Source of the DNA: Pisolithus tinctorius
Lineage: Eukaryota; Basidiomycota; Agaricomycetes; Boletales; Pisolithaceae
Assembly: GCA_024663395.1 (NCBI GenBank)
Contig: JANFAH010000040.1
Location: 1 to 64,000, forward strand
Direction of reading: 5' to 3'
DNA: 64,000 bases
The notes beneath the pieces were generated by a model. The model was not told where the DNA came from, searched no databases, and worked only from the letters and a program-made list of their open reading frames with translations. Shown one piece after another: positions 2,106-45,570 of this stretch. Position 1 is the first letter of the stretch. Each line of letters opens with the position of its first letter. Made by a program: the position numbers and the translations under genes.

Positions 2106-5100
2106 ATGCCAGCGACGAGCGACTTCGTCAAGAAATTGTACAAGTACGTCCTCTTCGCGGCCATCCTTCCGATCCACTGCTTACTTGCAATCAGGATACT
2201 TGAGGATCAATCCTTCCCACACACAGTATCATGCGGTCCAAACGGTGGTTGCTTTGTCGTAAAGGTCGGTCTTCCTACTTCTTTCTTGCTCTATCTCTCA
2301 TCAACCCGTCATCACTTTGATCGACCACGCGTTCTTACTTCTGACCTCTTCTCTTGCCCTACTCACATCTCCCCTTCCAATGGGACATGAACGACTTCAC
2401 GAAATCAATCCTCCCTCGCATGTTTAAACACTCTAATTTTGCCTCGTTTGTCAGGCAGCTGAACAAATACGACTGGCACAAGGTGGGTATGCGCATATAT
2501 CGCGTGCATCTTATATGCGCGCTCTGGTGTCTCTTATGACCAGAGGAAATTCCCATTCTGACATGTACTCCAGGTCAAAAATACCGACGGCACCCAATTT
2601 GGTGAACACTCGTGGACATTTCGACATCCTGACTTCCACGCTGACCGGCGAGAAGCCCTGGAAAACATGAAACGCAAGGTCCCTGCAGCGCGTGTATCAG
2701 CACCATCACGGTCCGCTATCGGACCCTCTACGCTGGGTCGTTCTGGCTCAGCCGGACCCCTAGGTGGCGAATTGAAATCTTCCCAAACGCAAACCAACAC
2801 CCTCGCGTCGCATACGAGTGCACTGCAGAACCAGCATTCAGCGCTCCAGTTGCAGATGACCGCCTTCTAGTCCCAAGCCAACGCATCGCATGCTCAAAAC
2901 GCAACTCTTCAATACGTCACAACAGGATTGCAGAACGCCGTGTCTGGCTTTCAGAACGGAATGTCAGGGTTACAACCGCAAGTCGCGGCGCTGCAGTCTC
3001 AGAACGACTCTCTAAGGACACGGTTGGTAGGTCAGAGGATCGAGTGAGAGGTTTGGAAAGGTATTACAAGGACGTGCTTGGAGAAATGGTTCGTTTCCAG
3101 AGGAATCTTGCTCAGCAGGATGGTTTGATGCAGAGTTTAGTGCAATATTTTCTGCGTGCGGAAGGCGGTGAGTCTGCTTACTTTTTTTGGTCTGGATCTT
3201 GCTCTGTTCGTTAGTGTTCCGTGTTATTTGGACCAAAGAAATGGTTGGGTTGTCAAGGGAAACTAGAAGAGGGGAGTTGGGTCGTGGGTGCAATGGATCC
3301 TTGCACCCTACCCCGTGTACACTGTGCCTGCGTCTCCGATGCACGTTCGCATACTCATCGTTGTTCCTCAGCGAAGCACAAAGATTCCGTTTGCGCAACA
3401 TCCATCGCACCCGGACCAGCACCACCTACAGCTGGCCTTGCAAATAACTCTCAGCAAATACAAAAACCCCATACATCCGTAATGCGTCCCCCGACAAGAT
3501 CAGGGTCTCTGGGACACAGTATGACTCCCAACATGCATCCACCCCCGTCCACGTTCGGACTGTCGACAAAAATGTCGACCACGGCGACTGCGATGTCAGC
3601 GACGTTGCTGGCTTCGCAACAGCCGCAGCCAAGTCCGTTTTTGCGGCCGCTCACTGCGTCTCATTCGCAGCACATGGTCGGATCCCATGGACATGGACAT
3701 GGACCGCCCACGACGTCTACGTCGTCATCGACACTTTTTCGGGCACTATCAAGAAGTCAGGCTCAAGCGCAATCCCAATCCCCGTCTCCATCAGTTTCAC
3801 AAGCACAAGGTTAGGCGCAAGGACTTGCTGAGCCACCCATACAATCTATTCAATCGATTCTATCTATGCAAGAACAGATATCTTCCATGCGAGAAACAAT
3901 CCCTCTCTCGCAAACGATTCCATCTGTGCATTCACCCATGCAGGAATCAATGTCTTCCTTACCGCAAGCGACATCGATGCAACAAATGGTGTCGGCTATG
4001 CAAACGATGCAACCCATGCAGCAGGTTCAGCTTTTACCTGTCCATGAGACCCATCGTGTGCTGGGGTTGGTTGGGGATCATCGATATCCGGATCCGACCG
4101 CGATTGCGAGGGCGAGTTTGGCACAGATGAATGAGATGTCGAGGAAGGCTGGGGCGTCTGCTGAAATGACGAGTAGTGGTACAGGTTCGGGAAATGGAAC
4201 GAGACCGGAGGGGACGGATATGACGAGTGGTGATGCTCCTTTTCTAATCCCTCCGGATACATCCTGGGACGGGACGGTCCAAACGGTTCACGAGGGATTA
4301 CAGGTGTTCACATTGGGAAATTTGCTTCCGAGGAGTGCGCTTGACGATGCGAATGGAAATTGGACGTATGGTGGGGATATACCTGGTACGCCAAATATGA
4401 ATGGGGGTGGGAATGGAGGCGGGAATGGATGTGCTGATGAAGACGGTGTAGGTGGAATTGGGGAGTGCGAGGGGGAGGGGTTCGAGAAAGAGGAAAGTCC
4501 AGGTGCTGCAGAAGTCGTGCGACCTACGCCCACAAACCCCGGCGTCCGAGAATCTTCATCAGCAACTTCCGGAGCCGCGACGCCTTCGTCTGGTGGAGGG
4601 CAGAAACTGCGAGTCAGGAGGTCAACGTTCGTCCCGGGATGGGCAGTCCCGCCACGCGTACTTCTTGTCGACGACGATGCGGTGAGCAGGAGACTGAGCA
4701 GCAAGTTTTTGCAGGTATTCAGGTGCGCGGTTGACGTGGCAGTGGATGTAGTGGGAGCGGTGAATAAGATGAACTTGGAAAAGTATGATTTAGTGCTGAT
4801 GGTGAGTTGATCTCTTTACGTGGCGGCGCCCATTGGGGCCGGCTGTTGACACACTTCGGGCTTTAGGACATTGTAATGCCCGAGATGGACGGTATATCGG
4901 CCACATCGTTGATCCGCCAATTTGATCACGTTACGCCTATCATCTTAATGACAAGTAATTCGCGTCCGAGCGAGAGGAAGGGTTGTTGGATATATTGGAG
5001 GTGAGATCCTTTCTGTACCGTATTTTCTATTTGTGCTGCGTGTGATGTGGCAGGATGGGGCTTACGAAGTTATGATCTTGTACAGAAGCACCTCATGCAT

Positions 5101-8250: not shown

Positions 8251-11200
8251 ATGGCTCCTGGTCGTATCAAGAAGTGGTTCAAGTCGCTCGGCAGTGATTC
8301 GCATCGCGCCCGCCAGAGCGATCCACGCGATATAGCTCCTGCTGCAACTGAAGCTGCGGCTGCAGGTGTGATATTGTTCTAGCCTACAAAACATGACATA
8401 CTTAATATGGGGACACAGAGGCTGGCGATCTTATTGGTGATGTGGCGAATCCAGTTCCCCCTCCGGAAGGTATTATTGTTGCTCTTCGTGAAATCTAAAT
8501 TGTTTAATGCTGAGTCTCAGCAACTGCGTCTTCTGGGCCGGTTTACCGTCTCAATTCTGAGATGGCTCAAGAATACATGAAAAACATCAAGCGCTTTCGA
8601 ATTCTGGTGATGGGCAGAGCGAATGCCGGTAAAACCACCATCCTCCAAAGAGTGTGCAACTCTACTGAAAATCCGGAGATCTTTGATGGAAAAGGAAACA
8701 AGGTATAGTTCTATAGGGTCGGTAGAATCCTGTGACATCTGTCTAACAATTTTCAGATTGATGATACTATCGTGCAGGGCACTTTGGCAGTAAGATGCCA
8801 CCTTGACTTGTGGAAACTCATATGAATGCTGAATGCTCCCAGCGTGGCTACCATAGAATTGAGCATGAGCTCATTTTTCAGAGTAACCTGGGCTTTGTGT
8901 TTCACGATTCTTGTGGGTTTGAAGCAGGGGCTGCAGAAGAGTTTGACCAAATGAAGGACTTCGTGGTTGACCGTGCAGCCACCCCCAAGGTGAATGAACG
9001 AATCCATGCCATCTGGTAAGGAATGCAGTGTGTGTGACTACAGTCTAAGGCAACAGAACATAGGTTTTGCATCCCCATGACTGAGAACCACAGGACAGTA
9101 ACTGCTGCTGAGCAGAAGTTCTTCAATGAGTGTGACACAGGACATGGTGAATTCTTTTGCTGGGATGATTGTCATATAACTAAGGACCTGTCTAGTGCCT
9201 GTGATAGTGTTGTTGACAAAGGTGGATACCTTGAATCTGGATGCAATTGAAGAACTTGAGGATGAAGGTTGGGAGATAGAAGGAGCACAGGAAAAGATTG
9301 CAGAAAAGGAACAGGAGTTGTTGAAAAAGTGGCTTGCACACATACAACATGAGCTTGGCAAGTGCAAGTTTCCACCTAAAGGATATGTGACACTTCAAAG
9401 TGGGTATTCTGTCACTCAGAGGTAGTGCTACTAGAAAATCCTGGTGGTGGCAGAGATGCATCAAGAGAGTGCAGACTGCAGTGCTGTGATGGATTACACA
9501 GCAAATGTGTTGAATGAGGAAGGTTTACAAAGGTTACTTATATCAACACAGCAGTCAAGTATTGCACTGTGTGTTCAATATGCTGTGGACAAGTAAGTAA
9601 GCAAGTATGTTTTGGTGCAGATACTGATCTTCTGAAGGACATTGAGAAACAGAATGGAGCTAGGTTTCAAGGGAAGATTGCAGGTGGATGCAAAAGGATT
9701 GGAATGTGATTTGCTGAAATGGTTTCCAAATTGTGATGTAAATGTCAAAATTCTTCCAACATATGGAGTGAATGACACTCCCATTTCATGTTCTCTTGCA
9801 TGTATTAACAGGATGTGAGTAATTAATGGCATGGCCATGCTGGATTTACTGACTAGGGTCATTCATACTTGATGTTGATGGCATGGCAGTATGTGAGTGA
9901 CTTCATGTCATGGTTAGTTGGATGTCTGCTCAATGGCCTCACTTGCACTCTTGATGTTGGTGGCATGACAGTGGGTGAGTGATTTGATGGCATGTTTAGC
10001 TGGATGTCTGCTCAATGGCCTCACTTGCTCTCTTGATGTTGGTGGCATGACAGCATGTGAGTGATTTGATGGCATGTGTAGTTGGATGTCTGCTCAATGG
10101 CTTCACTTGCACTCTTGATGTTGGTGGCATGACAGGCTGTGAGTGATTTGATGGCATGTTTAGCTGGATGTCTGCTCAATGGCCTCACTTGTGCTCTTGA
10201 TGTTGGTGGCATGACAGTGGGTGAGTGATTTGATGGCATGTTGAGCTGGATGTCTGCTCAATGGCCTCACTTGCACTCTTGATGTTGGTGGAATGACAGG
10301 CTGTGAGTGATTTGATGGCATGTTTAGCTGGATGTCTGCTCAATGGCCTCACTTGCACTCTTGATGTTGGTGGCATGACAGGCTGTGAGTGATTTGATGG
10401 CACATTTAGCTGGATGTCTGCTCAATGGCCTCACTTGCACTCTTGATGTTGGTGGCATGACAGGTTGTGAGTGATTTGATGGCATGTGTAGCTGGATGTC
10501 TGCTCAATGGCCTCACTTGCACTCTTGATGTTGGTGGCATGACAGCATGTGAGTGATTTGACGGCATGTTTAGCTGGATGTCTGCTCAATGGCTTCACTT
10601 GCACTCTTGATGTTGGTGGCATGACAGGATGTGAGTGATTTGATGGCATGTTTAGTTGGATGTCTGCTCAATGGCCTCACTTGTGCTCTTGATGTTGGTG
10701 GCATGACAGTGGGTGAGTGATTTGATGGCATGGTTAGCTGGATGTCTGCTCAATGGCCTCACTTGCACTCTTGATGTTGGTGGAATGACAGACTGTGAGT
10801 GATTTGATGGCATGTTTAGCTGGATGTCTGCTCAATGGCCTCACTTGCACTCTTGATGTTGGTGGCATGACAGGCTGTGAGTGATTTGATGGCACATTTA
10901 GCTGGATGTCTGCTCAATGGCCTCACTTGCACTCTTGATGTTGGTGGCATGACAGACTGTGAGTGATTTGATGGCATGTTTAGCTGGATGTCTGCTCAAT
11001 GGCCTCACTTGCACTCTTGATGTTGGTGGCATGACAGCGTGTGAGTGATTTGATGGCATGTTTAGCTGGATGTCTGCTCAATGGCTTCACTTGCACTCTT
11101 GATGTTGGTGGCATGACAGGATGTGAGTGATTTGATGGCATGTTTAGCTGGATGTCTGCTCAATGGCCTCACTTGCACTCTTGATGTTGGTGGCATGACA

Positions 11201-14200
11201 GTGGGTGAGTGATTTGATGGCATGTTGAGCTGGATGTCTGCTCAATGGCTTCACTTGCACTCTTGATGTTGGTGGAATGACAGGAGGTGAGTGATTTGAT
11301 GGCATGTTTAGCTGGATGTCTGCTCAATGGCCTCACTTGCACTCTTGATGTTGGTGGCATGACAGGCTGTGAGTGATTTGATGGCACATTTAGCTGGATG
11401 TCTGCTCAATGGCCTCACTTGCACTCTTGATGTTGGTGGCATGACAGCGTGTGAGTGATTTGATGGCATGTTTAGCTGGATGTCTGCTCAATGGCCTCAC
11501 TTGCACTCTTGATGTTGGTGGCATGACAGCGTGTGAGTGATTTGATGGCATGTTTAGCTGGATGTCTGCTCAATGGCTTCACTTGCACTCTTGATGTTGG
11601 TGGCATGACAGACTGTGAGTGATTTGATGGCATGTTTAGTTGGATGTCTGCTCAATGGCCTCACTTGCACTCTTGATGTTGGTGGCATGACAGCGTGTGA
11701 GTGATTTGATGGCATGTTTAGCTGGATGTCTGCTCAATGGCCTCACTTGCACTCTTGATGTTGGTGGCATGACAGGATGTGAGTGATTTGATGGCATGTT
11801 TAGCTGGATGTCTGCTCAATGGCTTCACTTGCACTCTTGATGTTGGTGGCATGACAGTATGTGAGTGATTTCCTGGCATGTTTAGCTGGATGTCTGCTCA
11901 ATGGCCTCACTTGCACTCTTGATGTTGGTGGCATGACAGGATGTGAGTGATTTGATGGCATGTTTAGCTGGATGTCTGCTCAATGGCCTCACTTGTGCTC
12001 TTGATGTTGGTGGCATGACAGGCTGTGAGTGATTTGATGGCATGTTTAGCTGGATGTCTGCTCAATGGCCTCACTTGCACTCTTGATGTTGGTGGCATGA
12101 CAGGCTGTGAGTGATTTGATGGCATGTTGAGCTGGATGTCTGCTCAATGGTCTCACTTGCACTCTTGATGTTGGTGGCATGACAGTGGGTGAGTGATTTC
12201 CTGGCATGTTTAGCTGGATGTCTGCTCAATGGCCTCACTTGCACTCTTGATGTTGGTGGCATGACAGGATGTGAGTGATTTGATGGCATGTTTAGCTGGA
12301 TGTCTGCTCAATGGCTTCACTTGAACTCTTGATGTTGGTGGCATAACAGGCTGTGAGTGATTTGATGGCATGTTTAGCTGGATGTCTGCTCAATGGCCTC
12401 ACTTGCACTCTTGATGTTGGTGGCATGACAGGTTGTGAGTGATTTGATGGCATGTTTAGCTGGATGTCTGCTCAATGGCCTCACTTGCACTCTTGATGTT
12501 GGTGGCATGACAGGCTGTGAGTGATTTGATGACATGTCTAGTTGGATGTCTGCTCAATGGCCTCACTTGTGCTCTTGATGTTGGTGGCATGACAGACTGT
12601 GAGTGATTTGATGGCATGTTTAGCTGGATGTCTGCTCAATGGCTTCACTTGCACTCTTGATGTTGGTGGAATGACAGGAGGTGAGTGATTTGATGGCATG
12701 TTTAGCTGGATGTCTGCTCAATGGCCTCACTTTCACTCTTGATGTTGGTGGCATGACAGGATGTGAGTGATTTGATGGCATGTTCAGCTGGATGTCTGCT
12801 CAATGGCCTCACTTTCACTCTTGATGTTGGTGGCATGACAGGCTGTGAGTGATTTGATGGCATGTTTAGCTGGATGTCTGCTCAATGGCCTCACTTGCAC
12901 TCTTGATGTTGGTGGCATGACAGACTGTGAGTGATTTGATGGCATGTTTAGCTGGATGTCTGCTCAATGACCTCACTTGCACTCTTGATGTTGGTGGCAT
13001 GACAGGCTGTGAGTGATTTGATGGCATGTTTAGTTGGATGTCTGCTCAATGGCCTCACTTGTGCTCTTGATGTTGGTGGCATCACAGTTTGTGAGTGATT
13101 TGATGGCATGTTTAGTTGGATGTCTGCTCAATGGCTTCACTTGCACTCTTGATGTTGGTGGCATGACAGGCTGTGAGTGATTTGATGGCATGTTCAGCTG
13201 GATGTCTGCTCAATGGCCTCACTTGCACTCTTGATGTTGGTGGCATGACAGGATGTGAGTGATTTGATGGCATGTTTAGCTGGATGTCTGCTCAATGGCC
13301 TCACTTTCACTCTTGATGTTGGTGGCATGACAGCATGTGAGTGATTTGATGGCATGTTTAGTTGGATGTCTGCTCAATGGCCTCACTTGCACTCTTGATG
13401 TTGGTGGCATGACAGCATGTGAGTGATTTGATGGCATGTTTAGCTGGATGTCTGCTCAATGGCCTCATTTGCACTCTTGATGTTGGTGGCATGACAGGAT
13501 GTGAGTGATTTGATGGCATGTTTAGCTGGATGTCTGCTCAGTGCAATACTTGGCACTGTTCATGATGATGGTATGGCAGAATGTATGTGAATTTAATCCA
13601 GTGTTAGATCTTTCCTGATTCCCTTGACTTCCATACTTTGGGGTCCACTTGACTTGTAGCTTGTCAGTGTTTCTACTCTGTTACCCCTGATATTTGCTAC
13701 ATTTTATGGACTCCCTCAACCACCTTTTATGGCAGAATGTGAGTGGTTGCATGCTTTTTCACATGCACATACTGATCATGATTGTGTGGTGGTGCCCTTG
13801 GTGTGACCTCTTCCATGGCAGGAGGTGTGTAACCTATAGCAGCCACAACTGGCTACATTTCTCATCCATGTATACTTTGACCATATTTGTCACACATGTG
13901 CCATTAAAACTCTTAGCTTGTAAGCATTGGCCTAATACCCCTTTTTGTCTTAGGCAAACATATAGAATAACAGCCTAAATTTGAAGTCAATACTGCTGTC
14001 CAAATGCCAGCTCTGCCCAAACATGTCACTTTGTTGGGGAGGTTCCCAAGTCTCCAGTCAATGGCTGAACATGCCATTGGTAAGTGTTTCCCAATACCTA
14101 CACAAGATATACTCACTGCTCTAGGATGCTTGCTTGTTGCTGAGCATTCTTACTTTTTAATGCAGCAAGGGCAACATCTTTGGCAGGCAGTTTTGTCATT

Positions 14201-14414
14201 GAGTGTGGAGGAATACAACAGGTTCAACATACAAGCTGCCATTTCAAATGCTGTCAAGGCAGCTTTTCATGACCATAAGGGTGATATGGATGGTTTATGT
14301 TGTGCTATTATCAAGATCATCACTGAGCATCGCATGTGTAGGTGGAGATTTTCACTATTTATGGAGTTACCATTCTGAGATGTTTTCAGCAAACAAGCTG
14401 TTGAAGGCCAATAA
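8251..14414 (+). CDS. AIG1-like P-loop GTPase with about 48 three-nucleotide microexons encoding a hydrophobic segment
   Basis: Exons: 8251-8365, 8419-8469, 8521-8702, 8757-8789, 8843-9015, 9064-9146, 9196-9399, 9454-9592 and 9638-9814; then 48 exons of 3 nt from 9890-9892 to 13822-13824; then 13974-14079, 14166-14335 and 14390-14414 (TAA). Every intron is GT...AG, phases agree throughout, and the total is 1602 nt, i.e. 533 residues. The G domain shows P-loop GRANAGKTT, G3 DSCG and G4 TKVD, followed by NEEGLQRLLISTQQSSIALC and DLLKWFPN, typical of the fungal branch of AIG1/GIMAP-like GTPases (role unknown; animal and plant relatives act in immunity). Each microexon gives the third base of one codon and the first two of the next. 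The 48 resulting codons are Ile, Leu, Met, Val, Phe or Gly, except two Arg, so this is a predicted membrane segment or pair of segments. A soluble tail follows (SLSVEEYNRFNIQAAISNAV). CpG density falls sharply after about 9.0 kb. Alternative: a single 4.16-kb intron (9815-13973) would also keep the frame. Confidence 0.8.
9893..13579 (+). repeat. Tandem array of 82-bp units: 79-nt intron plus 3-nt exon
   Basis: Each unit runs GTGAGT...CTCAC (candidate branch site, about 30 nt before the end)...GGCATGACAG, 79 nt, followed by a variable triplet and the next GTGAGT. From the triplet at 9972 to the triplet at 13498 the period is exactly 82 bp over 43 steps, with no indel. Triplets seen are GCT, GAT, TGG, CAT, ACT, CGT, GTT, GAG, TAT and TTT. 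The other 79 positions are almost invariant. A higher-order period of six units is marked by 'GGAATGACAG', 'GGCACATTTAG' and 'GGCTTCAC' variants. Flanking units (9815-9889, 13583-13735, 13739-13821, 13825-13973) differ in length or have diverged strongly in sequence. The array lies on the coding strand of the GTPase gene between two good exons. Confidence 0.95.
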
Positions 14415-14989
14415 AGTTTGAATATGGTCAAAACATTAAGAGTAGCATGTCCAGGTATGGGACTATATCTTATCATTAATTTGTAAGGCATGCTCAATAT
14501 TCAATTTGCACTGCAACATACCTGACATTAGTGTGATGTTAGTGCTTGTCACACATAAATCCATATCTCTACTGTTTCTTCACTGATTTGAATGATTGAA
14601 GTTTGAAACATTGTGTTTACTTGTATACATTGATGTGATGTAAAAATATGGAATCCCACCAGAGAATGTGTCTGAACCAATGGTAAATACTCCTACATGT
14701 AAGTACCCATGGCCATGGCTATGCTTATGTACAGGTTTCATAAGGTGTACCTTTGCATTTGTTCCAGTCATGCTCATTGCTTGCAACAATGCTTCCACCA
14801 TCAAGTGCACTCAATCCAATGGCTTTCAACCCTGCTGCAAGATATTCATGTCATAGTGTTATAGCTTTTGGGGTTGTCATGTGTTTGGAGACCAATTCAT
14901 CTGAGCCAGTCCAATCCCTAGGTGAGTCTGGACCGGAGTTGGCAACCCTGGTGCCCATCACTGCTTAGCAGCTGCAACCCAGTACTCCC
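14415..14989. other. 3' flank of the GTPase gene, nothing recognised
   Basis: CpG-poor DNA follows the TAA at 14412-14414. Open frames on both strands are short and have no recognisable motif. Confidence 0.5.
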
Positions 14990-20660: not shown

Positions 20661-23108
20661 TCATGGGACTGACCTGTACTGGCTCAATGCCATGAGAATA
20701 TGTTAAGCAGTGAAAACATCCAAGCACTAGTATCATTTGTCAGGGACTGAAGCAACTAAAGATGTGAGTCTTCTCAGCTATCACTTCAAACCAGAGAGTA
20801 GTGGGAGTGGAACCTGTTGATTGAGTACCAAGCTCAAAGCAAACTAGATTGGAGAAGCTGGCTATGACAAACAATGGGACTTATATACTGCCTTACTGTT
20901 TGTATGTACTGTCATGAGAGAACATTCTGGAAAGAAGTAAACAAAAGAGAGAACTATGCTATTGGATGAACACGAACATGCATTAGTAACAAGGCATGGC
21001 CCTACTAAGTATCATGTAAGAGTGAAAGAGTAAACAAAAGGAAAAGTCCAAGATGACTAAGCATCCCTAAAGCATAACCCTAACCAGAGGGTGGATATAT
21101 ATGGAGAACTAGGAAACACAGAAGTGAAAAGTCTACTGGTCATTACAGGGACAAGATGGACCGAGCATGGCAGGCCACTAACCTGGCATTAAACCCCACA
21201 GCAAGCAAACCTGCATTGTCACCAGAGAGGTCAGAGTGCTTGGCAGCAAACTTGCTGGGTGTGCAGGGTCTTCCTGCAGGCATAAGAAGCTAATTACAAA
21301 CAGTACATCAATGCGCCAGAAGGGCAGAGAGTCATCAAGTACTGACCAGCCACAGTTCACAGTCTCTCATGATGCTCTGAGCATGGCAACTCATCCAGAG
21401 GAAGCTGAGCAAGGGAATGACAAACAGAGCTGGCTGACATAGCCAGTGCCCAGCTGACAAAGACTAGGCTTACCACTTGTTGATGTAAGGTGCTGCATCA
21501 TGGTGGATGAAGTTGCAAGTGGGAAATTGGTTTCACAAGCTTATCAGTGCTGAGCAGATAATGGGAGTGGGAATAGCAACATGTCAGCTGGGTGAAACAC
21601 TCAGATCAGTGTTGGCAGGTACTCACCAATAATAATAATCATTCAATGGCCATGGATGGCAGCAAGAGCTTGAAGAGCATCAGGCGACGAAGAGGGAACA
21701 ATGGGAGGAGGCAAGGGTTCCTGCCAGCATGCACAGTGCTGCGATACACCATCTGAACCTGCCCTAAGCGATGATGTTAGTGCCATGATGTCCTCGAGGC
21801 CATGAACTGGTTCGAACCACAAAGTGCTGCAAAGTGACTTTGCAATGGGAAATGTACACTGATTTTTGCGACCACACTGGCTGGATTTGCAAGGTCGAAC
21901 CAATAAAATTGGTGAACTGTTTGACAGGGCAAGACCCTTGAAGCTTGAAGTTGCCCACTTGCTGACTTGGGTTCCATGTGATGCTGCAAGTCATTATGGT
22001 ATTACATACAGTACAGTACTAACAGGGTGGGGAGTTTCGTACATGATATGTACAGCCAATTCATGCCATCACACAGGCACCAGCTAGGGTTACATGGTTA
22101 CACTGTACTGTACATATACTACGCAGAACAAGGGCAGTCAATTTGTGGTGACCAGTATTCTGTCACTTAGATGGCAGCCCACCCATGATAAACCACTTGA
22201 TACCAATAATAGGCTGGGCTCAACACATCATATTATGTCAGTTTATTAGTATGTATATTAGATGCAGCTTGGTACAAACCAATTTAGCTCATGGGCCTAT
22301 CACAGTATTCTGTCATACATGCCAAGTCAACCACTGAGCTTGAGCGCTTGATGTGGCACAGTTGTAGGAGACACCATAGCTGCCCCCCATCAACTTCTGA
22401 GGTTGCCTGACACACATTTGCATTCAAAGAATAGCTAAGACCTCAAAGGCTCAAACTGCCAACTCATTATATCGATAAATCTTAGAGTAGGTCTACATAT
22501 TGATACCAATCACAATTGGAGCCACCCAAAGGTCTAAGCAACATTGATGGCATTCCATTCAGACCCTGAGTTCAGTGCTGAAGGTGAGTCACCCCCTACA
22601 TTTGCTTCTGCATCCTGACACCATCCTGCATGATCAACAATGCTGGTGCTGTCACGAGCCATCAGACACTCTGAACAGCTGTCCCTGCTGCCAAAGATGA
22701 GCCACTGTGACTGGGAGGCCGACGGAAAATTTGCAGTCCACCAGCACAGCCACCTGCAAATTTTCCGGAATAAATGTACTTTATTTGCGCTTTTTGGGGT
22801 TTTCCCATGCATCTGGGATGTGTAATTGGCTTCCTGTTCACTCAATTCCCATTGGGATGCCCTGAAACCTTGAACATAGATGGAGGTAGACAGGAGGAAT
22901 GTAGCTATGGTATTAAACATGTCATTCACTCAGTGAGGGAGGCATGGTGCAATGCTTTCTGGCTTTTTCCATTCCTGTTATCTCTCAGCAACTAGAGGGG
23001 TTGCTTGGTTGATCTTTGGACAGGGTGTAGATACCCTATAGACCAGCCTTCCTACCCAAGTACAGACAAATACATGCAGAAGTGAATGACAGACTTTTGG
23101 GGTGAGCC
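20661..23108. other. CpG-poor DNA, no gene recognised
   Basis: This probably includes the decayed 5' end of the XPG-type gene near 20.7-20.9 kb. The remaining open frames (for example 21643-21903 minus, 22534-22929 minus) show no motif I can assign. Confidence 0.4.
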
Positions 23109-23440
23109 AAGGCTCCAGATCACATGATTAAGGTCATGTGATAGACTTTTGCAGTGAGCCCAGTGTCCAGATCACATGATTGAGGTCATGTGACAGACCT
23201 TTGCCATGACCCAGAGCACTGGATCATGTGATGATTGTCACATGATAGCCCTTTGCTGTGACCTGAGGCACCAGATTATGTGACATTAGTCACATGACCA
23301 AGCTCCCCAGAGACATTGCAACAGGTTGTCATGTGACCACAGATTGCAGTGTCAAGGTCACATGACCATTACATCATTGGTCATGTGACTGAAAACATGT
23401 GACCTCCTATCATGTGATCTGTTGTCATGTGACTTGTCCA
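23109..23440. repeat. Cluster of TCACATGA / TCATGTGA motifs
   Basis: At least a dozen CATGTGA or TCACATG occurrences lie within about 330 bp, many as inverted pairs around a 5-6 nt spacer (for example TCACATGATTAAGGTCATGT). The units are degenerate copies of about 60 bp. The motif contains the E-box-like core CACATG; function unknown. Confidence 0.8.
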
Positions 23441-23744
23441 CTACCTCTCAACACTACACTTTTCAGAGTCAGTGGTAGTCAAAAATGTGCACTACCAAAA
23501 TGTAGCATAGTCTACACTACACAACACTAATGACTATTGCTACTTGTAATCATACTGCATTAACACCACAGGGAATGACAATGGAGTGATGTCATCATGA
23601 CAAAAGTTGTAGCTCTTGATTGTGCAATCATGACAGTATGCTTATCTTATCAGAAGGTAGAAGATTGCATGAGAAAAACACAGAATACTTAAAAAAACAT
23701 GAGTGTTGACACAAAATGTCACTGGACCTCAATGACAATTAGGA

Positions 23745-24025
23745 CTGGAGAATCCCCAGCATGCCATGGAGAATCCCCAGGGGCCATGGAGGATCTCCAA
23801 CATGACATGGAGAATCCCCAGGGGCCATGGAGAAATGACATGGAGAATCCCCAGCCAGCCATAAAGAATCCCCAGCATGACATGGAGAATCCCCAGCCAG
23901 CCATGAAGAATCCCCAGCATGCCATGGACAATCCACAGGGGCCATGGAGAATCTCCATCATCCCATGCAGACTCCCCAACATGACATGAAGAATCCCCAG
24001 GAGCCACAGAGAATGCCCCATGGGC
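23745..24025. repeat. Degenerate tandem repeat around GGAGAATCCCCAG
   Basis: Units of about 24-30 bp alternate CCATGGAGAATCCCCAG with AGCATGACAT or GGGG variants, roughly ten copies. They create open frames rich in MENPQ-type residues on one strand, which are repeat artefacts. Confidence 0.85.
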
Positions 24026-24409
24026 TGCATCAGGAAAAGAACACTTTTTCCAAGTGGTCTAATAGTCTATACTGCATTTAATGATGTCTTGATATCCACA
24101 GCACTTTAGTGCTCACTCTCCAACATCATCTAATTCATGCTGTCTTACTGACACACTTTTTTTTCTGTGGTCCTAATGTGGTCTGTAAGTGATTTATTGA
24201 CATCTTCATGCCAATATATTGCTGTAACTCTTGATTCATAGTACTCTATAGAACCATATCTGTCTTGCTTAATTCATTTGCTCTTTATGTTCCTTGGCAT
24301 CCATTCCACTTATACATCTACCCTTCTGAGATAAGTTGTGATTAGAACACTTAGAACAATCACTGTTTTCCTGATGCATGTAGAATCCCCACCAGGACAT
24401 GGCCTGGGA

Positions 24410-24715
24410 AAGTGGGTCTATTTAGCCTGGGGAAAACCCAGGTTTGCCTGGAAAGCAGGTCTATTTAGCCTGGGGAAAGCCCAGATTCACCTGGAAAGCA
24501 GGTCTATTTAGCCTGGGGAAAGCCCAGGTTCACCCTGGAAATCAGGTCTATTTAGCCTGGGGAAAGCCCAGGTTTGCCTGGCAAGCAGGTCTATTTAGCC
24601 TGGGGAAAGCCCAGATTCACCTGGAAAGCAGGTCTATTTAGCCTGGGAAAAGCCCAGGTTGACCTGGAAAGGGGGTCTATTTAGCCTGGAGAAAACCCAA
24701 TGTGGACCCCAGCTA
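24410..24715. repeat. 43-bp minisatellite, about seven units
   Basis: The unit is GGTCTATTTAGCCTGGGG followed by AAAGCCCAGGTT and CACCTGGAAAGCA, repeated about every 43 bp. Each unit holds a short perfect stem, CCTGGG-GAAAG-CCCAGG. The open frame 24444-24641 follows the repeat and is not evidence of a gene. Confidence 0.88.
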
Positions 24716-25179
24716 CCCTTTCATTTGATGTATAATATATACATATTACAGAGACAATGTTTTCTCCAACCATATTAAATTGCTGCCCTGGAGAATCTCC
24801 AGGAATGGTGGTGGAGAATCCCCAAAAGTTGGGAATTCCCAACAAAATGACACCTATTAGGTTAATACTTCACATAATGTACCTACTTTGTACCGTATCA
24901 TACAACCAAATGAGGTTGACAATCAGCTGTGTTGCACAGACTGGCTAAAGTCGAGCCCACCTCTGAGTTGTCATCATGTCACACAGCATAGCCATGATCA
25001 TTGGATGTCACCATACTGCACAGTGTGGCTGAGGGGTTACTACTATATACATCTTGCCTGGATAATCCTGGTGTGGATTCTGGCAAGTTGGGAAAGGTCT
25101 GGTGCTAACCTGGTCTGGGCTCACTGGCATGAGCCCAGCATGTGTCAGCAATTGCCAGTGGGTCAGAAGGCATTCCACT

Positions 25180-26700
25180 GTAATTCTATTGGGTTGGTAT
25201 GAATGCCAGGCTAATTCCAGTAAGCTGGGACAAATGCTGGGATAATGCCAATAAGCCAGGAAACATACCAGTCTTATGCTAGTGGGCCAGCACAGATGCC
25301 AAGGTGGTGATGGTCAGTTGGCATGGATGCTGAGCTAATTCCAGTTGGCTGGTATGGATGACAGCCACCACACTATTTCCAGTGGGTTGGAAGGCATACC
25401 AATGTACATCCATTGGGCTGGGATGAGTTATGGCAACTTCTAGTATGCTGGGTCACATACCAGCCTTATGCAAGTGGGCCATGACAGGTGCCTGGATTAT
25501 GGTGGGTAGTTGGAATATACATCTAGCCAGCTTTCATGCCAGGAATAGTAAGCTGGGACCCATACCGGTATAGTGCAAATATGCCAGAATAGAGGATAAG
25601 CTGGTGGTGGTGTGTGGGCATGGATGCTCATCTAATTCCAGGTGGGTCAGATGGGTCACAGGCTCCAGGATATTTGCAGTGGTTTGGAAAGTACACTAGT
25701 GGGATGCTATTGGGCCTGTATGACTTCCTGACATTTCCAGTTATCTGGGCCAGATCCCATGTTATGGCCAGTGAGCTGGGATATCTACCTGGCTGAATCT
25801 AGGGGACTGGCAGGGGGCCAAGGCCAGTGACAGTTGGTTGGCATCAATTCCTAACTAACTCCAGTTGGCTGGAATGGATCACACCTGCCAGGCTATTTAC
25901 AGTGGTTCAGAAGGCATTCCAGTGGGATGGTATTGGGCCAGTATATGTTCCAGCCAAATCCAGTCAGCTGGGTCAAATTCCCAGTTGTTGAACATGACCT
26001 GGGACACATACTGGCCACAATATAGTGGGCCAGCACAGGTTCAGGGCTGTTGGCAGTTGTTTGGCATCAATTCTGAACCAACTCCAGTTGGCTGGGATAA
26101 ATGACACCCTCCAGGCTATTTACAGTGGTTCAGAAGGCACTCCAGTGGGATTCTATTGGGCCGGTATATGTTCTGGCCAAATCCAGTCAGCTGGATCAAA
26201 TTCCCAGTTGTTGACCATGACCTGGGATACCTACCAGCACAGGTCCAGGGCTGGTGGCAGTTGTTTGGCATCAGTTCTGAACCAACTCCAGTTGGCTGGG
26301 ATGAATGACACCCTCTGGGCTATTTACAGTGGTTCAGAAGGCACTCCAGTGGGATGGTATTGGGCTGGTATATGTTCCAGCCAAATCCAGTCAGCCAGAT
26401 CAAATTCCCAGTTGTTTATCATGACCTGGGATACCTACTGGCCACAATGTAGTGGGCTGCCACAGGTCTAGGGCTGGTAGCAGTTGTTTGGCATCAGTAC
26501 TGAACCAACTCCAGTTGGCCAGGATGGATGACACCCTCTGGGCTATTTACAGTGGTTCAGAAGGCACTCCAGTGGGATTCTATTGGGCCAGTATATGTTC
26601 CAGCAAAGTCCAGTCAGCCAGGCCAAATTCCCAGTTGGTGACCATAACCTGGGACACATACCAGCCTTATGCTAGGGGACTGGGACAGATGCCCAGCCTA
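25180..26700. repeat. Degenerate tandem repeat, about 200-225 bp period
   Basis: Recurring blocks contain ACTCCAGTTGGCTGG, GGCTATTTACAGTGGTTCAG, AAGGCATTCCAGTGGGAT and CCAAATCCAGTCAGC. The clearest copies start near 25858, 26080, 26282 and 26507; older, more diverged units precede them. CpG is almost absent. No coding signal. Confidence 0.8.
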
Positions 26701-27513
26701 TGGTGGTTGATTGGCATGGATGCCCAGTTAAGGCCACTTGATGTTACCAGTTTAGATGATGGGCTAGTCTTTTGGCATCCCCTGGCAAATGCATGAGCCA
26801 TACAAATAGTGTCCCATATATATTGGCTGGGCTGGGAAGCTATTGTCTATGGGGCTGATATATCAGTGGCCCATGTAATAAGGCTCAGCTGGACCTGCAG
26901 TGTTCCATTTGGAACAGTGGGAGCATATTTCAGTGTGCCATGTGCATCAGCCTCAGCCCAAATTGGAGTGCCCATGTACTATGGAGGGCTTATAGTCCAT
27001 TGTACCATGACCTTGGGGTGGGCCCAGATATTGTGATCCCATAGGACAGGCTGGACAAATACTCCAGTGTTTCATGGTGTATGGGAGGCCCATGATATGG
27101 TGTCCCATCTGTCTTGAGTCAGCCTGTGTATTATGATCACCAATCCATGTGGTCTGGCACATATGCCACAGTCTCATGCACAACAAGCAAGCCAATCTCC
27201 CAGTGTGCTGTCTGACTGGATTCAGCTCGAGTTGAAGTGTTCCACCAATTATGGGCCAGCCATAGTTGAAATTGGGAGAGGTATATGGCAAATAACTTGG
27301 CTTAGGATGGCATATAATATCTATAGAACCACCTTTAAATGGACCCCCTATTGGATAAGTGTAGGTTATATGGAAGGTCCCACCAGACCTGCAGGCATCA
27401 ACCAAGTCCAGACATTCTGAACTCTCATCCAATCCCCACAGGGTATCCCTATCCAATTGTGTATGTTGTCCCTCATGTAGTAGGCAAAGCAACATCAGTT
27501 CCCACCCACAGAA
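26701..27513. other. CpG-poor DNA, no gene recognised
   Basis: Short overlapping open frames on both strands are seen, with no recognisable domain. It may be the decayed 3' part of the minus-strand sequence that follows. Confidence 0.4.
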
Positions 27514-33236: not shown

Positions 33237-34616
33237 ATGGCAACCAAGACTCGCTTCCAACCTCCCCGTGGCCGCTCTGCCACCAATCCCGACTCCGCTT
33301 CAGCCAGTGGGGCTCACCGCGAAACAGCACTAGCTGCTTTGGGCACCACTAGGCGCTCCCCAGGTCCCGTCAGCCCTTTCAGGGGCTTCTCAGCCCGCAC
33401 ATCCAATACCCCCACTCCACGTCGTCCCACTGCTCCCATCCCCGAGGGTGACCCCGGCGATGATGGGCCGGGCGACGATGATGACAACGACCCAGGCGAT
33501 GATGACCCCGGTGATAATGGTCCCGGTGATGATAACCCGGAAGATAATGATCCGGAAGACGATCCGGACTTCCCAGACCCGGACACCGAACCCGCGGTCG
33601 CGGTCTTCGATAGTCTCGCAAAGGCCATCAAGCTGTTGGCTCGCAATACCCGTACTAGTCCTGAGTCCTCAAGCAGGACCAAGTTATGCGAGCCCGACAC
33701 CTTTGACGGCACCGACCCAAAGAAACTTCGCGCTTTCTTCATCCAGTGCGAACTCAATTTCCAAGACCGTCCCCGGGCTTTTAGGACCGACCGCGCCAAG
33801 GTCATCTTCGCCCAGTCGTACCTCAAAGGCATGGCCTTAGAGTGGTTCGAGCCGGACTTACTCGGGCTCGATGACCCCGATGACCGGCCTCTCTGGATGG
33901 ACTCCTGGCGGGAGTTCGTCCTGGAGTTGCAAACCACCTTCGGCCCCCACGATCCGGTCGCTGACGCCGAGAGCCAGCTCGACCATTTACATATGAAGGA
34001 AAGTCAGCGCATTAACAAATACGTAGTTGACTTTAATCGGCTTGCTTCGCAAGTCCGAGGCTACGGAGATGGTGCGCTGCGCCACCACTTCTACTCCGGA
34101 CTCCCAGACCGAATTAAGGACGAAGTCTGTCGAGTTGGTAAACCGCGGACTCTACACGAGCTCCGTCATCTCGCCCAGGAGATAGATGCGCGCTATTGGG
34201 AGCGCAAGGAAGAAGTCCAGCGGGCGAGTAAGCACCAAGGCTCGTCCAACTCCAGCAACAACAAGTCCGGAGGTTCCGGCAGTAACAGTCAGCCTAAGAC
34301 CGGTCAAGATAAATCCAAGACCGGCAACAATAATAACTCCGGTTCCCCCCCCAAGGCGGCTTCATCGAAGCCGGGCAATGGTAATAACAGCAATTCGTCC
34401 AAGCCCGAGCCTAGCAAACTCGGCAAAGATGGAAAGCTTACCCCTGAGGAACGCAAGCGTCGCATAGACGGAAACCTCTGCATGTTCTGTGGAGGGTCCG
34501 GTCACTTCGCTGACAAATGCCCCAAGAAGACCGGAAAGGCCAAAGCTCGCGCTGCGGCTACCACTGAGGCCGCACCGGCCTCGGGCTCGGGTTCTACCCC
34601 CGAGACAAAAAAATAG
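33237..34616 (+). CDS. gag: Chromovirus Gag polyprotein
   Basis: 459 residues from ATG 33237. The N-terminus is Pro/Ser-rich, residues about 75-120 are a low-complexity acidic stretch of DDPGDN-type repeats, residues about 150-310 are the retrotransposon gag (capsid) domain (KLRAFFIQCELNF, YLKGMALEWFEPD, FVLELQTTFGPHDP, DHLHMKESQRINKYVVDFNR), a Ser/Asn/Gly-rich linker follows, and a CCHC zinc knuckle CMFCGGSGHFADKC sits at about 415-428. Gag forms the virus-like particle and binds RNA. It ends TAG at 34614-34616 directly after a run of seven A, and pol follows in the -1 frame. The frame is intact. Confidence 0.95.
   Translation: MATKTRFQPPRGRSATNPDSASASGAHRETALAALGTTRRSPGPVSPFRGFSARTSNTPTPRRPTAPIPEGDPGDDGPGDDDDNDPGDDDPGDNGPGDDNPEDNDPEDDPDFPDPDTEPAVAVFDSLAKAIKLLARNTRTSPESSSRTKLCEPDTFDGTDPKKLRAFFIQCELNFQDRPRAFRTDRAKVIFAQSYLKGMALEWFEPDLLGLDDPDDRPLWMDSWREFVLELQTTFGPHDPVADAESQLDHLHMKESQRINKYVVDFNRLASQVRGYGDGALRHHFYSGLPDRIKDEVCRVGKPRTLHELRHLAQEIDARYWERKEEVQRASKHQGSSNSSNNKSGGSGSNSQPKTGQDKSKTGNNNNSGSPPKAASSKPGNGNNSNSSKPEPSKLGKDGKLTPEERKRRIDGNLCMFCGGSGHFADKCPKKTGKAKARAAATTEAAPASGSGSTPETKK
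34607..34616 (+). promoter_or_regulatory. Candidate -1 ribosomal frameshift site A AAA AAA followed by TAG
   Basis: 34607-34613 is A7, positioned in the gag frame as A AAA AAA and followed at once by the gag stop. A -1 slip puts ribosomes in the pol frame, which is open from this point without a stop. This fits the X XXY YYZ slippery rule. A downstream stem was not proven. Confidence 0.75.
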
Positions 34617-37600
34617 GTAGCGGCTCCCAGGACTCCGCACAATCTGGGAGCTGCGTTGACTCCGGTTGTGCAAACTTGGAGGCTCGTCTCAACGCGTCCG
34701 CTCTTTCCAGCCCGAATTCTTTAACCCCGTATGTCACATTAGAAAACCCAGAAATACCTCGGCTTCGTACCTTAGTGGACTCCGGTTCCACACATTGTTT
34801 CATAGATAATCAGTTTGTTAATCAACACTCGTTTACCCCTTACTTGGTCTCACCAATCCGACTCCGGCTCTTCGATGGAACGTCCACCTTCACTATAACC
34901 CAAGCAGTAGATGTCAACATCCGCTTTGCGTCTGGCGATGTCACACCGGTAACCCTGTTTCTAGCCCCGTTGGATTCTGAGTGTAAGATAGTTCTCGGAC
35001 ATGACTGGCTCACCCGCTACAATCCGTTGATTGATTGGGTACTGAGTAGTCTAACATTCCGGACTCCTGCACAAGGAATGCCAACCCCGTCGACACCCCC
35101 TGTAAGCACGGTCTCCACCGGCCTTCCTGACTCCGGTCCTAGTGACCAACCCGGCCTCGCGCCATCTGTACCGGTCTCCGACTCCCCGGCTCGCACCCCT
35201 CTGAAAGCCCCTCTTGTTTCCCTGATCAACGCAGCCGCCTTTGTGCGCGCCTGCAAACTAGAAGGGTCCGTCCAATTCCAACTTCAGCTCCGCCCCTCAG
35301 ACTCAGCTCAAGCCCGATCGGCCTCGGCCTCCCCTCCTCCGGCCTTACCCAACGTACCGGAAGAGTACCATGACTTCGCTGATGTATTCAGCAAGGCCAA
35401 GGCCTCGGTACTCCCGCCACACCGGGAGTACGACCTAAAGATAGAGCTCGAAGAAGGAACAACCCCGCCTCTCGGCACAATCTACTCGCTGTCCCCGGTT
35501 GAGCTCCAAGCTCTCCGGACATTCATCGATGAAAACCTTACTACTGGATTTATTCGTCCGACTTCATCCCCTTATGCTGCACCGGTCCTCTTTGTCAAGA
35601 AGAAGGACGGCTCCCTCCGGCTCTGTGTAGATTTCCGCGGCCTGAATAAAATCACTAAGAAGGACCGATACCCGCTACCGCTCATCTCCGACCTCTTAGA
35701 TTCACCAAGCCGAGCCAAGATCTACACTAAGATTGATCTTCGGCATGCCTACCATCTCGTCCGGATTGCTCCGGGCGATGAATGGAAGACCGCCTTCCGG
35801 ACTCGGTATGGATCCTACGAGTGGTTAGTGATGCCTTTCGGCCTCACCAATGCCCCGGCCGCCTTCCAGCGCTTCGTCAACACTATCTTCGCGGATATGT
35901 TAGATGTCTGTGTGGTCGTCTACCTAGATGACATCTTGATCTACTCAGGAGATAAGGAGTCTCACAAGCAGCATGTCCGAGAGGTACTCCGCCGGCTTCG
36001 GCTTCACGGCCTTTATGCGAAGCCGGAGAAATGCGAGTTCCACTCGGACTCGGTCGAATACCTCGGATTCCACCTCTCCCCTGCCGGCCTCACGATGTCC
36101 AAGGAAAAGGTCCAGACCATCTGCGATTGGCCTGAGCCTCGCAAGGTCAAAGACATTCAGTCTTTCCTCGGATTCGCCAACTTCTACCGCCGGTTTATCT
36201 TTAATTACTCGGACATCGTCGTACCGCTGACTCGGCTTACCCGCAAGGGGGCTCCCTGGAACTTCTCCGAGGAGTGCCGCCGGTCATTCAACAACCTCAA
36301 GGCCGCCTTCACCACTGCGCCGGTCTTAACTCATTTCATCCCCGGGGTTCCTATCACCGTCGAGACCGATGCTTCGGACTACGCCATCGCCGGCATCCTT
36401 TCTATCACCTGCGGCGACGGCCAGATACATCCGGTCGCTTTCTACTCCCGGACTCTGACGGCCCTGGAATTGAATTATGATACTCACGACAAGGAATTGC
36501 TTGCTATTTTCGAAGCATTCCGGACCTGGCGCCACTACCTTGAGGGCTCGGCCTCACCGGTCGACGTTGTAACCGACCACAAGAACCTCGAGTACTTCTC
36601 TACCTCTAAAGTACTCACCCGCCGCCAAGCTCGCTGGTCGGAATTCCTTTCTCAGTTTAATATGATCATCAGGTTCAGGCCCGGTAAGCTCGGGGCTAAG
36701 CCCGACGCCCTAACTAGACGATGGGACGTCTACCCTAAAGAGGGGGATAGCGGCTATGCCCGAGTGAACCCGCAAAATCTGAGACCGGTCTTCACCCAGG
36801 AGCAACTAGCGGTCTCCCTCCGCGCAACTTACCTAGAGTACCCGGTCTTACGAGCAGTTGCCTTAATGGATGTCGAGAAACTTCATAATGATATCCTGAC
36901 CGCACTGCCAGACGACCCGGTCTCACAAATCCGCCTGTCCGACATATCAGATCCCCGGTGGTCAGTAGATGACACCGGTTTCCTTCGGCTTGATGGAAGG
37001 ATCTACGTGCCGGACTCAAATGACCTCCGCCTTAGGGTCTTGCGCCTCAAGCATGACCACCCTCTGTCCGGCCACTTCGGCCAAAACCGCACTTTAGAAC
37101 TCATACGGCGTGAGTACACCTGGCCCGGCCTCAGGACCTTCGTCAAGGACTATGTCCGGTCTTGCACGGCCTGCGCTCGGGCTAAGGTTCCCCGCCATCG
37201 GCCTTACGGCCTTCTCAAGCAACTTCCGGTGCCGGAGAAAACCATGGAATTCTATCTCTATGGATTTCATCGAACAACTTCCGGCCTCAACCGGCTTCAC
37301 GGCCATCCTTGTTGTAGTTGACCGGCTTTCCAAGCAGGCCATATTCATCCCCACCCACGACACTATCACAGCCCCAGAACTCGCCCAACTATTCCTACTC
37401 CATGTCTTTTCGAAGCACGGAGTACCGGCCCATGTAACCTCAGACCGAGGCTCGGAGTTTGTCTCCCACTTCTTCCGGTCACTCGGTAAGGCCCTGGATA
37501 TGCGCTTACATTTCACCTCGGGCTACCACCCCGAAGGTGATGGCCAGACCGAGCGGACTAACCAGACTCTCGAGCAATACCTCCGAGTGTACTGCAACTA

Positions 37601-38333
37601 CCAGCAGGACAATTGGGCTGACTTACTACCTCTGGCCGAGTTCGCCTACAACAATGCCCCTAGCGCTACTACCGGTGTTTCACCCTTCTTCGCTAACAAG
37701 GGCTACCATCCCAACATTTCAGTATACCCGGAGCGCGATCTTACCTCCGCCCGGGCTCGTGACTATGCAGTCGACTTAGACTCACTGCATCAATACCTAT
37801 GGGAAGAAATGACCCTAGCACAGCAGCGCTACCAAGGACCGGCCGATGCTAAACGCATGCCGGCTCCGGACTTCAAGGTCGGTGACCAGGTATATGTGAA
37901 AGCCAAATACTTCCGGTCAACTCGGCCTTCCAAGAAGCTCTCGGAAAAGAACCTTGGACCGTATCCGGTCATAGCTCAGGCCGGTACCCACTCATTCACA
38001 CTGCGCCTGCCGGACTCAATGCGCGCAGTCCACCCGGTCTTCCATGTTTCCCAACTCGAGCCGGCCGTCCCTAACACCATCCCGAACCGGACTCAACCAC
38101 CACCTCCACCTGTCGAAGTCGATGGTGATCTAGAGTTCGAGGTAGCAGAAATCCTCGACTCTAAGGTCGACCGGCGACGCCGCTGTTGGCTTCAATACTT
38201 AGTCCGGTGGACCGGCTACGAGGGGACCGATGAAGAAACTACTTGGGTACTCGCCACTGAACTAGACAATGCCTCTGAACTCGTACAAGAGTTCCACTCC
38301 CGCTACCCCGCTAAACCCGGCCCATATCAGTGA
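34607..38333 (+). pseudogene. pol: Chromovirus Pol (PR-RT-RNaseH-IN-chromodomain) with one frameshift
   Basis: The -1 frame entered from gag runs to 37321. Protease has LVDSGSTHCFID. Reverse transcriptase has LRLCVDFRGLNKI and catalytic YLDDILIYS, RNase H has VETDASDYAIAGIL, and the integrase zinc region has HPLSGHFGQ...SCTACARAK. An extra A in the run at 37238-37241 then breaks the frame. The rest continues in the next frame to 38333: integrase core with Asp in SMDFIEQLP, Asp in VTSDRGSEF and Glu in GQTERTNQTLEQ, then a GPYPVI domain and a chromodomain (WLQYLVRWTGYEGTDEETTW), which guides integration to heterochromatin in this clade. All catalytic residues are present. The single frameshift is either inactivating or an assembly error in a short A run. 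Confidence 0.92.
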
Positions 38334-39726: not shown

Positions 39727-40255
39727 TGTCATAGCCATGTCTCGACCCCGGCCGGACCCGGCCTCGCGCTCACTCAGTCCGGCCTCGGCCTCGCCAATCC
39801 CGTATCTCCAGTTGGTCTAGCGCGGTAGACACTGCTTTGCAGTGTCTGTCACTTCGGTTAAGTCCTCGCCCGGTCTTGTCCCCGGTCCACTCTGTCCCGG
39901 TCTCCGTTACCTTAGTCATACGTTACTAATATCTGCCTTACCAATCCTCTTAGCAATCCTTGCGAGACCGGCATTACCGGTCTCCGTACTATAGTTACTT
40001 CTAGTATATAAACTCGTAGATACTCGGCCTGTAGACCTCAGTCTGAAATCAACTAAGTCACCTCTGATAACTCCGTCTCGGCCTCAGACTCGGACTGAGA
40101 CCCACGCAAGGGAATAGCGCTGTATCCTCAGTCGCTAAGTCCAAACAGTCCAAAACTTCTGTACTCTCGTCTCCCCCCTTGATCCCGACCCCTCGGCCTC
40201 GCGCCCACTTCGGTCTCCGGTCCGGCCTCAACCCGGACAATCCCCGTACTTAACA
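39727..40255 (+). repeat. 3' LTR of the chromovirus
   Basis: 529 bp. It differs from the 5' LTR at seven positions, all transitions, six of them CpG versus TpG/CpA. TATATAA is at 40005-40011. Confidence 0.95.
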
Positions 40256-45475: not shown

Positions 45476-45570
45476 TGAAAGTTCAAAACATTGTAGGCAC
45501 TGTGGGGATTACACCAATGTTTGAGAATGATTTTGGTACCAGTGATAAGACTAGAACATGGCTGGTGCTG

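Follow-up and report, generated by a model that had tools for sequence, protein, structure and literature searches.

The window analysed here is a 64,000-nt stretch of DNA (G000:C40:1-64000) from a 92.5-Mb genome assembly of Pisolithus tinctorius, an ectomycorrhizal basidiomycete. It holds a GTPase gene on the forward strand, modelled with 62 exons, 61 GT-AG introns and 526 residues in one open frame (Table 1). Nine ordinary exons encode a GTPase domain with the P-loop GRANAGKT, followed by a helical segment that runs to LLKWFPNCD. The first two of these exons are the least certain. Three ordinary exons at the other end encode a conserved C-terminal domain. We argue that the middle of the gene consists of 50 one-codon exons, predicted to be spliced in order between the GTPase domain and the helical C-terminal domain, and we consider this highly probable. 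The original prediction had 60 exons and a TAA at 14414. That full frame could not be reproduced exactly, and the model given here has its stop at TGA 14419-14421.

The array itself was found by two methods. TRF, a tandem repeat finder, places 44.8 copies of an 82-nt unit in the regular part. A pattern scan for CAG-NNN-GTNWG (W = A/T) gives 49 nodes from 9812 to 13822. A 50th triplet, CTT at 13917-13919, has the acceptor TAG and lies outside this pattern. There are thus 50 consecutive exons of exactly 3 nt each between 9812 and 13919, with GT-AG introns between them. The tandem GT...AG segments, mostly 79 nt long and 3 nt apart, are confirmed, and the tandem 3-nt exons stand as they were first described. 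Their number was put at about 48, which becomes 50 when GAT 9812-9814 and CTT 13917-13919 are included. The array introns are 79 nt in the regular part, 75 nt at the first position and 153, 83, 92 and 54 nt at the last four. The exons among these diverged last introns are still exactly 3 nt. The pattern scan found no further run of 3-nt-exon units on either strand in the rest of the 64-kb window, and the longest run in 20 single-base shuffles of that remainder was 2. Rfam gave no match in the window at gathering scores.

Table 1. Coordinates of the GTPase gene and its array in the window.
Feature	Position	Strand	Description and basis
Upstream coding part, 9 ordinary exons	8251-8365, 8419-8469, 8521-8702, 8757-8789, 8843-9015, 9064-9146, 9196-9399, 9454-9592, 9638-9737	+	Open frame, GT-AG sites; NCBI model P0001
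Intron before array	9738..9811	+	GTAAAT...TTAACAG; phase-0 donor 27 nt past LL.WFP motif start, same place in 12/13 loci
50 exons of 3 nt	9812; 9890+82k, k=0-45 (last 13580); 13736; 13822; 13917	+	Predicted residues DYWHAWAAVHDWTATRDWEARRTRDYDAAWDAVATEDATAFADHHDNNEL; pattern, stop avoidance in family, sister-locus transcript
Regular 82-nt repeat (3-nt exon + 79-nt intron)	9868..13540	+	Consensus intron GTGAGT...CATGACAG; TRF, per-position table
Segmental duplication inside array, three consecutive 492-nt blocks of six units each	10218..11693 (10218, 10710, 11202)	+	Matching intron variants
Array 3' end, exons AAT, AAT, GAG, CTT	13580..13973	+	Diverged introns of 153, 83, 92 nt, then 54 nt; N-E-L ending common to P0010
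Downstream coding part	13974-14079, 14125-14337, 14390-14421 (TGA)	+	Conserved C-terminal domain PKFEVNTAVQMPAL...GCLLVAEHSYFLM...RMSNKLL; homologues P0013, P0121, P0010

The reading frame of the triplets depends on where the array begins. The exon before the array was first drawn as 9638-9814, which makes the triplets straddle codons and yields a 48-residue membrane segment. One can imagine that this frame is the real one, since it is free of stops in the window, it looks hydrophobic, and phase 1 has only 7 stops over 18 arrays. However, the exon actually ends at 9737 (...LLKWFPNCD|GTAAAT) and GAT 9812-9814 is the first 3-nt exon. Fourteen loci were queried for their donor sites and 13 had data. 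In 12 of the 13 a phase-0 GTR donor stands at +27 from the start of the LL.WFP motif, which is the place of 9738 in the window. GTR sites near the motif number 18, 22 and 6 in phases 0, 1 and 2 over the 13 loci, and those whose fifth base is G and whose sixth is T or G number 12, 6 and 0. GT sites of the other phases exist near LL.WFP, but none is as regular and has a donor-like sequence. In phase 0 the triplets are whole codons, reading DYWHAW...HHDNNEL, and their frame continues into PKFEVNTAVQMPALPKHV..., which is the conserved C-terminal domain shared with P0013, P0121 and P0010. The transcript described below reads phase 0 as well. The third base is T in 55% of triplets, and a shift by one base moves this frequent T into the second codon position, so the hydrophobic look of the shifted frame is an artefact. 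We therefore give the membrane segment next to no chance of being real, and keep the phase-0 frame.

Judged by GRANAGKT in an open frame and by an Arf match, the window protein is a predicted member of the P-loop GTPase superfamily. It was first called AIG1-like, and this does not hold up in Pfam. The matches are weak ones to Arf and MMR_HSR1 (Arf 24.9 bits against a cut-off of 22.3). AIG1 is unmatched at E up to 0.1 in P0010, P0040, P0025, P0026, P0013 and the window protein, the last scanned as a 433-residue wrong-frame version only. NACHT and ankyrin are likewise unmatched at this threshold in the same six proteins, which match P-loop NTPase models only. Foldseek with the AlphaFold2 model of P0010 gives a bacterial dynamin-like protein, IRG immunity GTPases and septins as the closest structures, all of them weak (TM-score <=0.5 among the 50 listed). 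GIMAP7 is at rank 40 of these 50, below the dynamin-like, IRG, septin and G-alpha chains, with low TM-scores throughout. The model itself was built from 33 sequences and has a mean pLDDT (predicted local distance difference test score) of 69.5. Its insert at residues 365-404 falls below 50, between the GTPase with its helices and a confident helical C-terminal domain. From this, the model suggests that the array-encoded segment is likely to be a flexible linker or a binding segment.

Evidence that such exons are used comes from a sister gene. P0026 is a protein of 467 aa translated from a 1,695-nt contig with the source label lgn, which we take to mean the Logan assemblies. The contig is free of introns and for that reason is taken to be cDNA-like. 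Residues 1-423 are all found exactly, except residue 344, on the normal exons of two loci combined, L013 (on contig C4) and L024 (on C109), and the leader is joined across a 49-nt intron. Residues 424-467 (DLPPYEQPQYQQQEGETREQWYERRYQEEQEQEQQHEQEYQEQQ) have no covering genome match among the matches listed, and in L024 they are not contiguous, the longest piece in any frame being 3 residues. The triplets of L024 taken in order equal 43 of these 44 residues. Only the last one differs, being R in L024 and Q in P0026. The 44 matched triplets span 3.5 kb and 43 introns, of which 42 are GT-AG and one is GC-AG. The latter lies in the array at L024 position 5625 and has the GC donor CAA|GCAAGT. Since P0026 contains the 3-nt exon of this intron, an intron of the GC-AG kind functions next to an exon of 3 nt. 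Other weak sites are also used in this transcript, namely the acceptor AAAG and the donor GTGGGT besides GCAAGT.

Two more proteins from short contigs point the same way. P0010 (519 aa, 1,703-nt contig) has about 34 extra residues at the place of the array and P0040 (555 aa, 1,889-nt contig) about 42, both counted by eye. The P0010 insert, RYAAWL...ALNEL before PSFDVDVD, has the same kind of ends (xY...NEL) as the array. Neither protein can be tied to a locus of this genome, as no match above 81% identity is among those listed. The original prediction that the 3-nt exons are spliced in thus finds support for 44 exons of a sister gene through P0026, and for the window gene it stays a prediction. 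We regard the splicing of consecutive 3-nt exons as likely on this basis.

At least 18 genes of the GTPase family in this genome carry arrays of 3-nt exons. The pattern GGCATGACAGNNNGTGAGTG occurs 446 times genome-wide, on at least 18 contigs, and the reversed pattern does not occur. A separate pattern search for pairs of units in GCAG form found three. A splice-site chain model was used to parse 18 array genes, from which twins and overlaps (L033, L019, L013, L037, L011/L012 and most of L016) were excluded. These genes contain 645 triplets of 38 kinds. In phase 0 there are 2 stops in the 645 triplets (TGA in L010 and in L021), compared with a mean of 32.9 and a minimum of 16 in 10,000 column shuffles. 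Phases 1 and 2 have 7 and 92 stops. The chain method fixes the exon length at 3 nt, and chains can be traced although most introns vary from 52 to 92 nt, with a few gaps of 136-233 nt. An exon-length tally over 16 loci gave 491 motifs with a 3-nt exon, while every other length from 1 to 30 had at most 27.

Could the array instead be a non-coding minisatellite inside one 4.2-kb intron that is removed whole, leaving a protein without array residues? The regular 82-nt unit is what a minisatellite would look like, and in the NCBI models P0025 and P0013 the exons on either side are joined straight to each other. Against this, P0026 has 44 residues at this point, 43 of which match array codons in order. 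A minisatellite also does not account for 2 stops where 32.9 are expected, nor for 3-nt chains that can be followed despite introns of 52-92 nt (with the exon length fixed by the method). We consider the minisatellite very improbable, and one-codon exons remain our reading of the array.

It must be noted that several observations weigh against this reading. At L035 the phase-0 GTR is at +33, and a better-looking phase-1 donor, GTGAGG, is at +28. Phase 1 is also poor in stops (the 7 mentioned above, and separately 4 compared with 5.7 in order shuffles), and phases 0 and 1 can hardly be told apart by counting stops alone. In-frame TGA codons occur inside arrays, one each in L010 and L021 and three in L013. 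The 16 tallied loci were picked with a 3-nt pattern and include overlapping stretches and near copies, a choice that favours a 3-nt result. The cDNA nature of P0026 is inferred from its lack of introns only. L024 has 60 parsed array exons and P0026 covers 44 of them; the remainder of its transcript was searched for and not found. P0026 may end with its contig or at a stop like that of L013. It matches neither L013 nor L024 over its full length, and therefore should belong to a further copy or a different strain. For the window gene no transcript was found, as a query with its array and C-terminal part brought up a single protein from a short contig, P0010, and this belongs to another gene. Finally, the NCBI models skip the array, stop before it or read into it.

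Among these public models P0001, that of the window gene, is 95% identical and stops before the last upstream exon. P0025 and P0013 skip the array by inspection. P0002, P0007, P0069, P0070, P0122 and P0123 read into array introns. The models that do so include P. marmoratus, P. orientalis and P. microcarpus, which implies that array units occur in several Pisolithus species.

The arrays differ greatly in size, from 12 triplets in L036 to about 104 in a gene on contig C7 that was pieced together from three stretches. This giant array (G000:C7:536000-562999, L014-L016) is rich in Cys, Ala and Gly codons and is spread across about 17 kb, with 8.4 kb between two of the stretches that lack units. 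Of 19 stretches compared with family proteins, 18 hold at least one match, the one with none being L015 in the middle of the C7 gene. The later loci L035-L041 were picked beside matches to family proteins. Residue composition varies by gene as well: Q/E/Y in L024, C/A/G on C7, Y/D/G in L018 and A/D/W/T in the window. The ends are more alike, with Y as the second residue in 10 of 18 arrays and many arrays ending near N-L-N or N-N. A CTCAC branch-like site had been proposed for the introns, and it is not conserved between arrays. CTNAC is found at intron position 46/47 in 160 of the 378 introns of 79 nt, compared with 325 for CTNAH at position 37.

Many family loci are near-identical pairs. The window gene has a twin at G000:C17:1192500-1199499 (L033) that is 100% identical over 6,300 nt by BLASTN. 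It therefore seems that both nuclear haplotypes, or else recent duplicates, are present in the assembly. An array that is contiguous on C100:12200-14900 (L040) is split on C4:804000-822999 (L011, L012), with about 8 kb between the halves. The C4 array seems split as if by an insertion.

Each 3-nt exon would add one whole codon to the mRNA. Two splice complexes would hardly fit on a 3-nt exon at the same time, and for this reason we argue that splicing is probably sequential. Each round would lengthen the upstream exon by 3 nt and bring its new end right up to the next 5' splice site. Such an order would avoid the simultaneous use of two splice sites 3 nt apart. Any skipped exon would leave the frame intact. 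A rival scenario is combinatorial use, in which most transcripts skip many triplets by regulated alternative splicing and full inclusion is only one product. With one codon per exon every skip keeps the frame, and the truffle genes discussed below are a precedent. However, P0026 keeps all 44 triplets that it spans and skips none, even beside the GC-AG intron. No second isoform turned up, though reads were not searched for one. We think combinatorial use unlikely, though it deserves to be kept in mind, and we prefer the inclusion of the triplets in order.

The arrays would grow and shrink by tandem duplication or loss of whole units, a unit being one 3-nt exon and its intron, so that each step changes the protein by one residue in frame. 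The window array contains three six-unit duplicate blocks. Of the close copies L013 and L024, the former lacks 163 nt in one gap, exactly two units, and the other gaps between the two are 1-6 nt. The two-unit gap implies that the reading changes by two residues. An alternative is that the arrays arose by introner insertion between the codons of one ancestral exon. Introners are intron elements inserted in a dispersed manner, with target duplications. Related introns do recur in the arrays compared. The constant 82-nt register, the duplicated six-unit blocks and the whole-unit length difference between L013 and L024 speak against insertion, which we regard as improbable. Tandem duplication of units is the more natural scenario for all three.

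After duplication the codons would diversify, often within similar ends (xY..., N-L-N or N-N-E-L), and the introns would stay alike. Among the 45 regular units of the window, minority bases number 21, 28 and 7 at the three triplet positions. At the 79 intron positions the mean is 1.0 and the maximum 10. Over 903 unit pairs the per-base divergence is 55% for the triplets and 3.4% for the flanking introns. There are 62 unit pairs with at most two differences in their 158 flanking bases, and in 54 of these the triplets are not the same. Between the three six-unit blocks 4-7 of 18 triplet bases differ, compared with 4-7 of 474 in the introns. Triplet divergence is 13.0 times the intron divergence in the window, 13.3 times in L017 and 1.8-5.7 times in the other arrays with at least five 79-nt introns. 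The comparison between close copies weighs against rapid codon change. Between L013 and L024, 5 of 174 triplet bases and 79 of 4,784 intron bases are different, so triplets are not clearly faster there, and diversifying selection is not proved. The triplet excess belongs to duplicates within an array, since these close copies show none clearly. It could come from selection, or from a homogenisation of introns that spares the codons. Some copies say nothing about rates: the 90 triplet bases compared are all identical in L024 and L019, the triplets of L036 equal those of L037, and the window twin is identical.

The third base has a peculiarity of its own. In the 446 exact-pattern triplets it is never C, while G occurs 139 times and A 48 times, and in the 645 parsed triplets C never precedes a donor GT. 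There are no stops in the 48 triplets ending in A, nor in the 100 listed of the 139 ending in G. CpG observed/expected is 0.02 in the array. Our preferred reason for the missing C is CpG decay, because NNC|GT makes a CpG and its change to NNT|GT is silent. Alternatively, a third-base C may pair poorly with U1. All five stops in 17 arrays are TGA, and two of the three in L013 sit where L024 has CGA, which is what CpG decay predicts. This suggests that L013 (C4:2500500-2510499) is a decaying copy with its three in-frame TGA codons.

One-codon exons are not without precedent. It was thought that no gene of this kind had been described, and this has to be withdrawn. The NACHT-ankyrin (nank) genes of Tuber melanosporum are stated to have tens or dozens of 3-bp exons, attributed to Iotti et al. 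2012, Fungal Biol 116:261, and regulated alternative splicing of their microexons is stated as well (PMC3689799, PMC4986451, PMC10197012, PMC9815663). As these sources portray them, the truffle genes resemble ours in having dozens of codon-sized exons, in forming an expanded family in an ectomycorrhizal fungus and in the encoded part being thought variable. The Pisolithus genes match them in number, with 50 such exons in the window and 12 to about 104 elsewhere. Splicing of microexons into mRNA is seen for the sister gene only (P0026, 43 of 44 residues). The difference is that Tuber is an ascomycete with NACHT-ankyrin proteins, whereas Pisolithus is a basidiomycete with a GTPase, and Pfam finds neither NACHT nor ankyrin domains here. 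We found no report of codon-sized exon arrays in a basidiomycete or a GTPase in a literature search that lacked most subscription papers and all preprints.

Other systems are less similar. The micro-exon genes of Schistosoma mansoni are described as having 10-20 such exons each, which measure 3 or 6 to 81 bp and mostly 15 bp; their introns measure 0.1-5 kb and their products are secreted (PMC10526429). By that description they too line up many very short exons one after another, with lengths mostly divisible by three, which are hard to annotate automatically. A Pisolithus gene has 12 to about 104 array exons, all of 3 nt, and the array introns are mostly 52-92 nt, around 79 nt and repeating each other. 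Plant microexons (1-15 nt, PMC8831610) are also exons of few nucleotides that are spliced and often missed by annotation. As characterised there, those of plants are single or adjacent and conserved, and not long arrays of variable exons. Fungal NOD-like receptor repeats of the HNWD type (PMC4986451) have near-identical tandem units with few variable codons and changes in unit number, and the variable codons are thought, in that account, to serve nonself recognition. There the repeats themselves are coding (WD, ANK, TPR), whereas in Pisolithus the repeat is the intron and one codon per unit is coding.

The array segment may be a variable, probably disordered linker or recognition element. A hypervariable recognition role is suggested by variability, family size and the truffle precedent alone. 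Pisolithus is a second case of one-codon-exon arrays, which lies outside the phylum and the protein family of the first and seems to be independent of it. We can offer only tentatively, at somewhat less than even confidence, the fuller scenario of intron-repeat arrays that evolved independently in Pisolithus to generate protein diversity, lone codons under strong diversifying selection, and GTPases as recognition proteins convergent with the truffle NACHT-ankyrin proteins. At the very least, arrays of one-codon exons are not a truffle oddity, since they are found in a basidiomycete, in an unrelated protein family and in at least 18 genes of one genome. They are a severe natural test of the spliceosome on 3-nt exons, with up to 50-100 of them in succession, and a system where a protein gains or loses single residues by duplicating an intron. 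They also mark a large variable family that is mis-annotated, as the public models examined truncate, skip or read into the arrays.

The rest of the window has a few other features. CpG observed/expected in its eight 8-kb blocks is 0.07-0.18 in five, 0.38 in one and 0.96 in two. The depletion at 8000-32000 and 40000-56000 (0.07-0.18) forms sharp blocks, the ratio being 0.96 both at 0-8 kb and at 32-40 kb, a pattern such as methylation and decay would leave. Open frames at 33237-38333 resemble by eye the gag, reverse transcriptase and integrase of a long terminal repeat retroelement. This element is probably a recent arrival because it lies in a CpG-rich block. Further tandem repeats with units of 20-427 nt are found at 23087-26717 and 50199-51316, and these do not have the 3-nt exon pattern. 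A 314-aa open frame at 3866-4810 ends like a response regulator by eye (VLLVDDDAVSRRLSSKFL).

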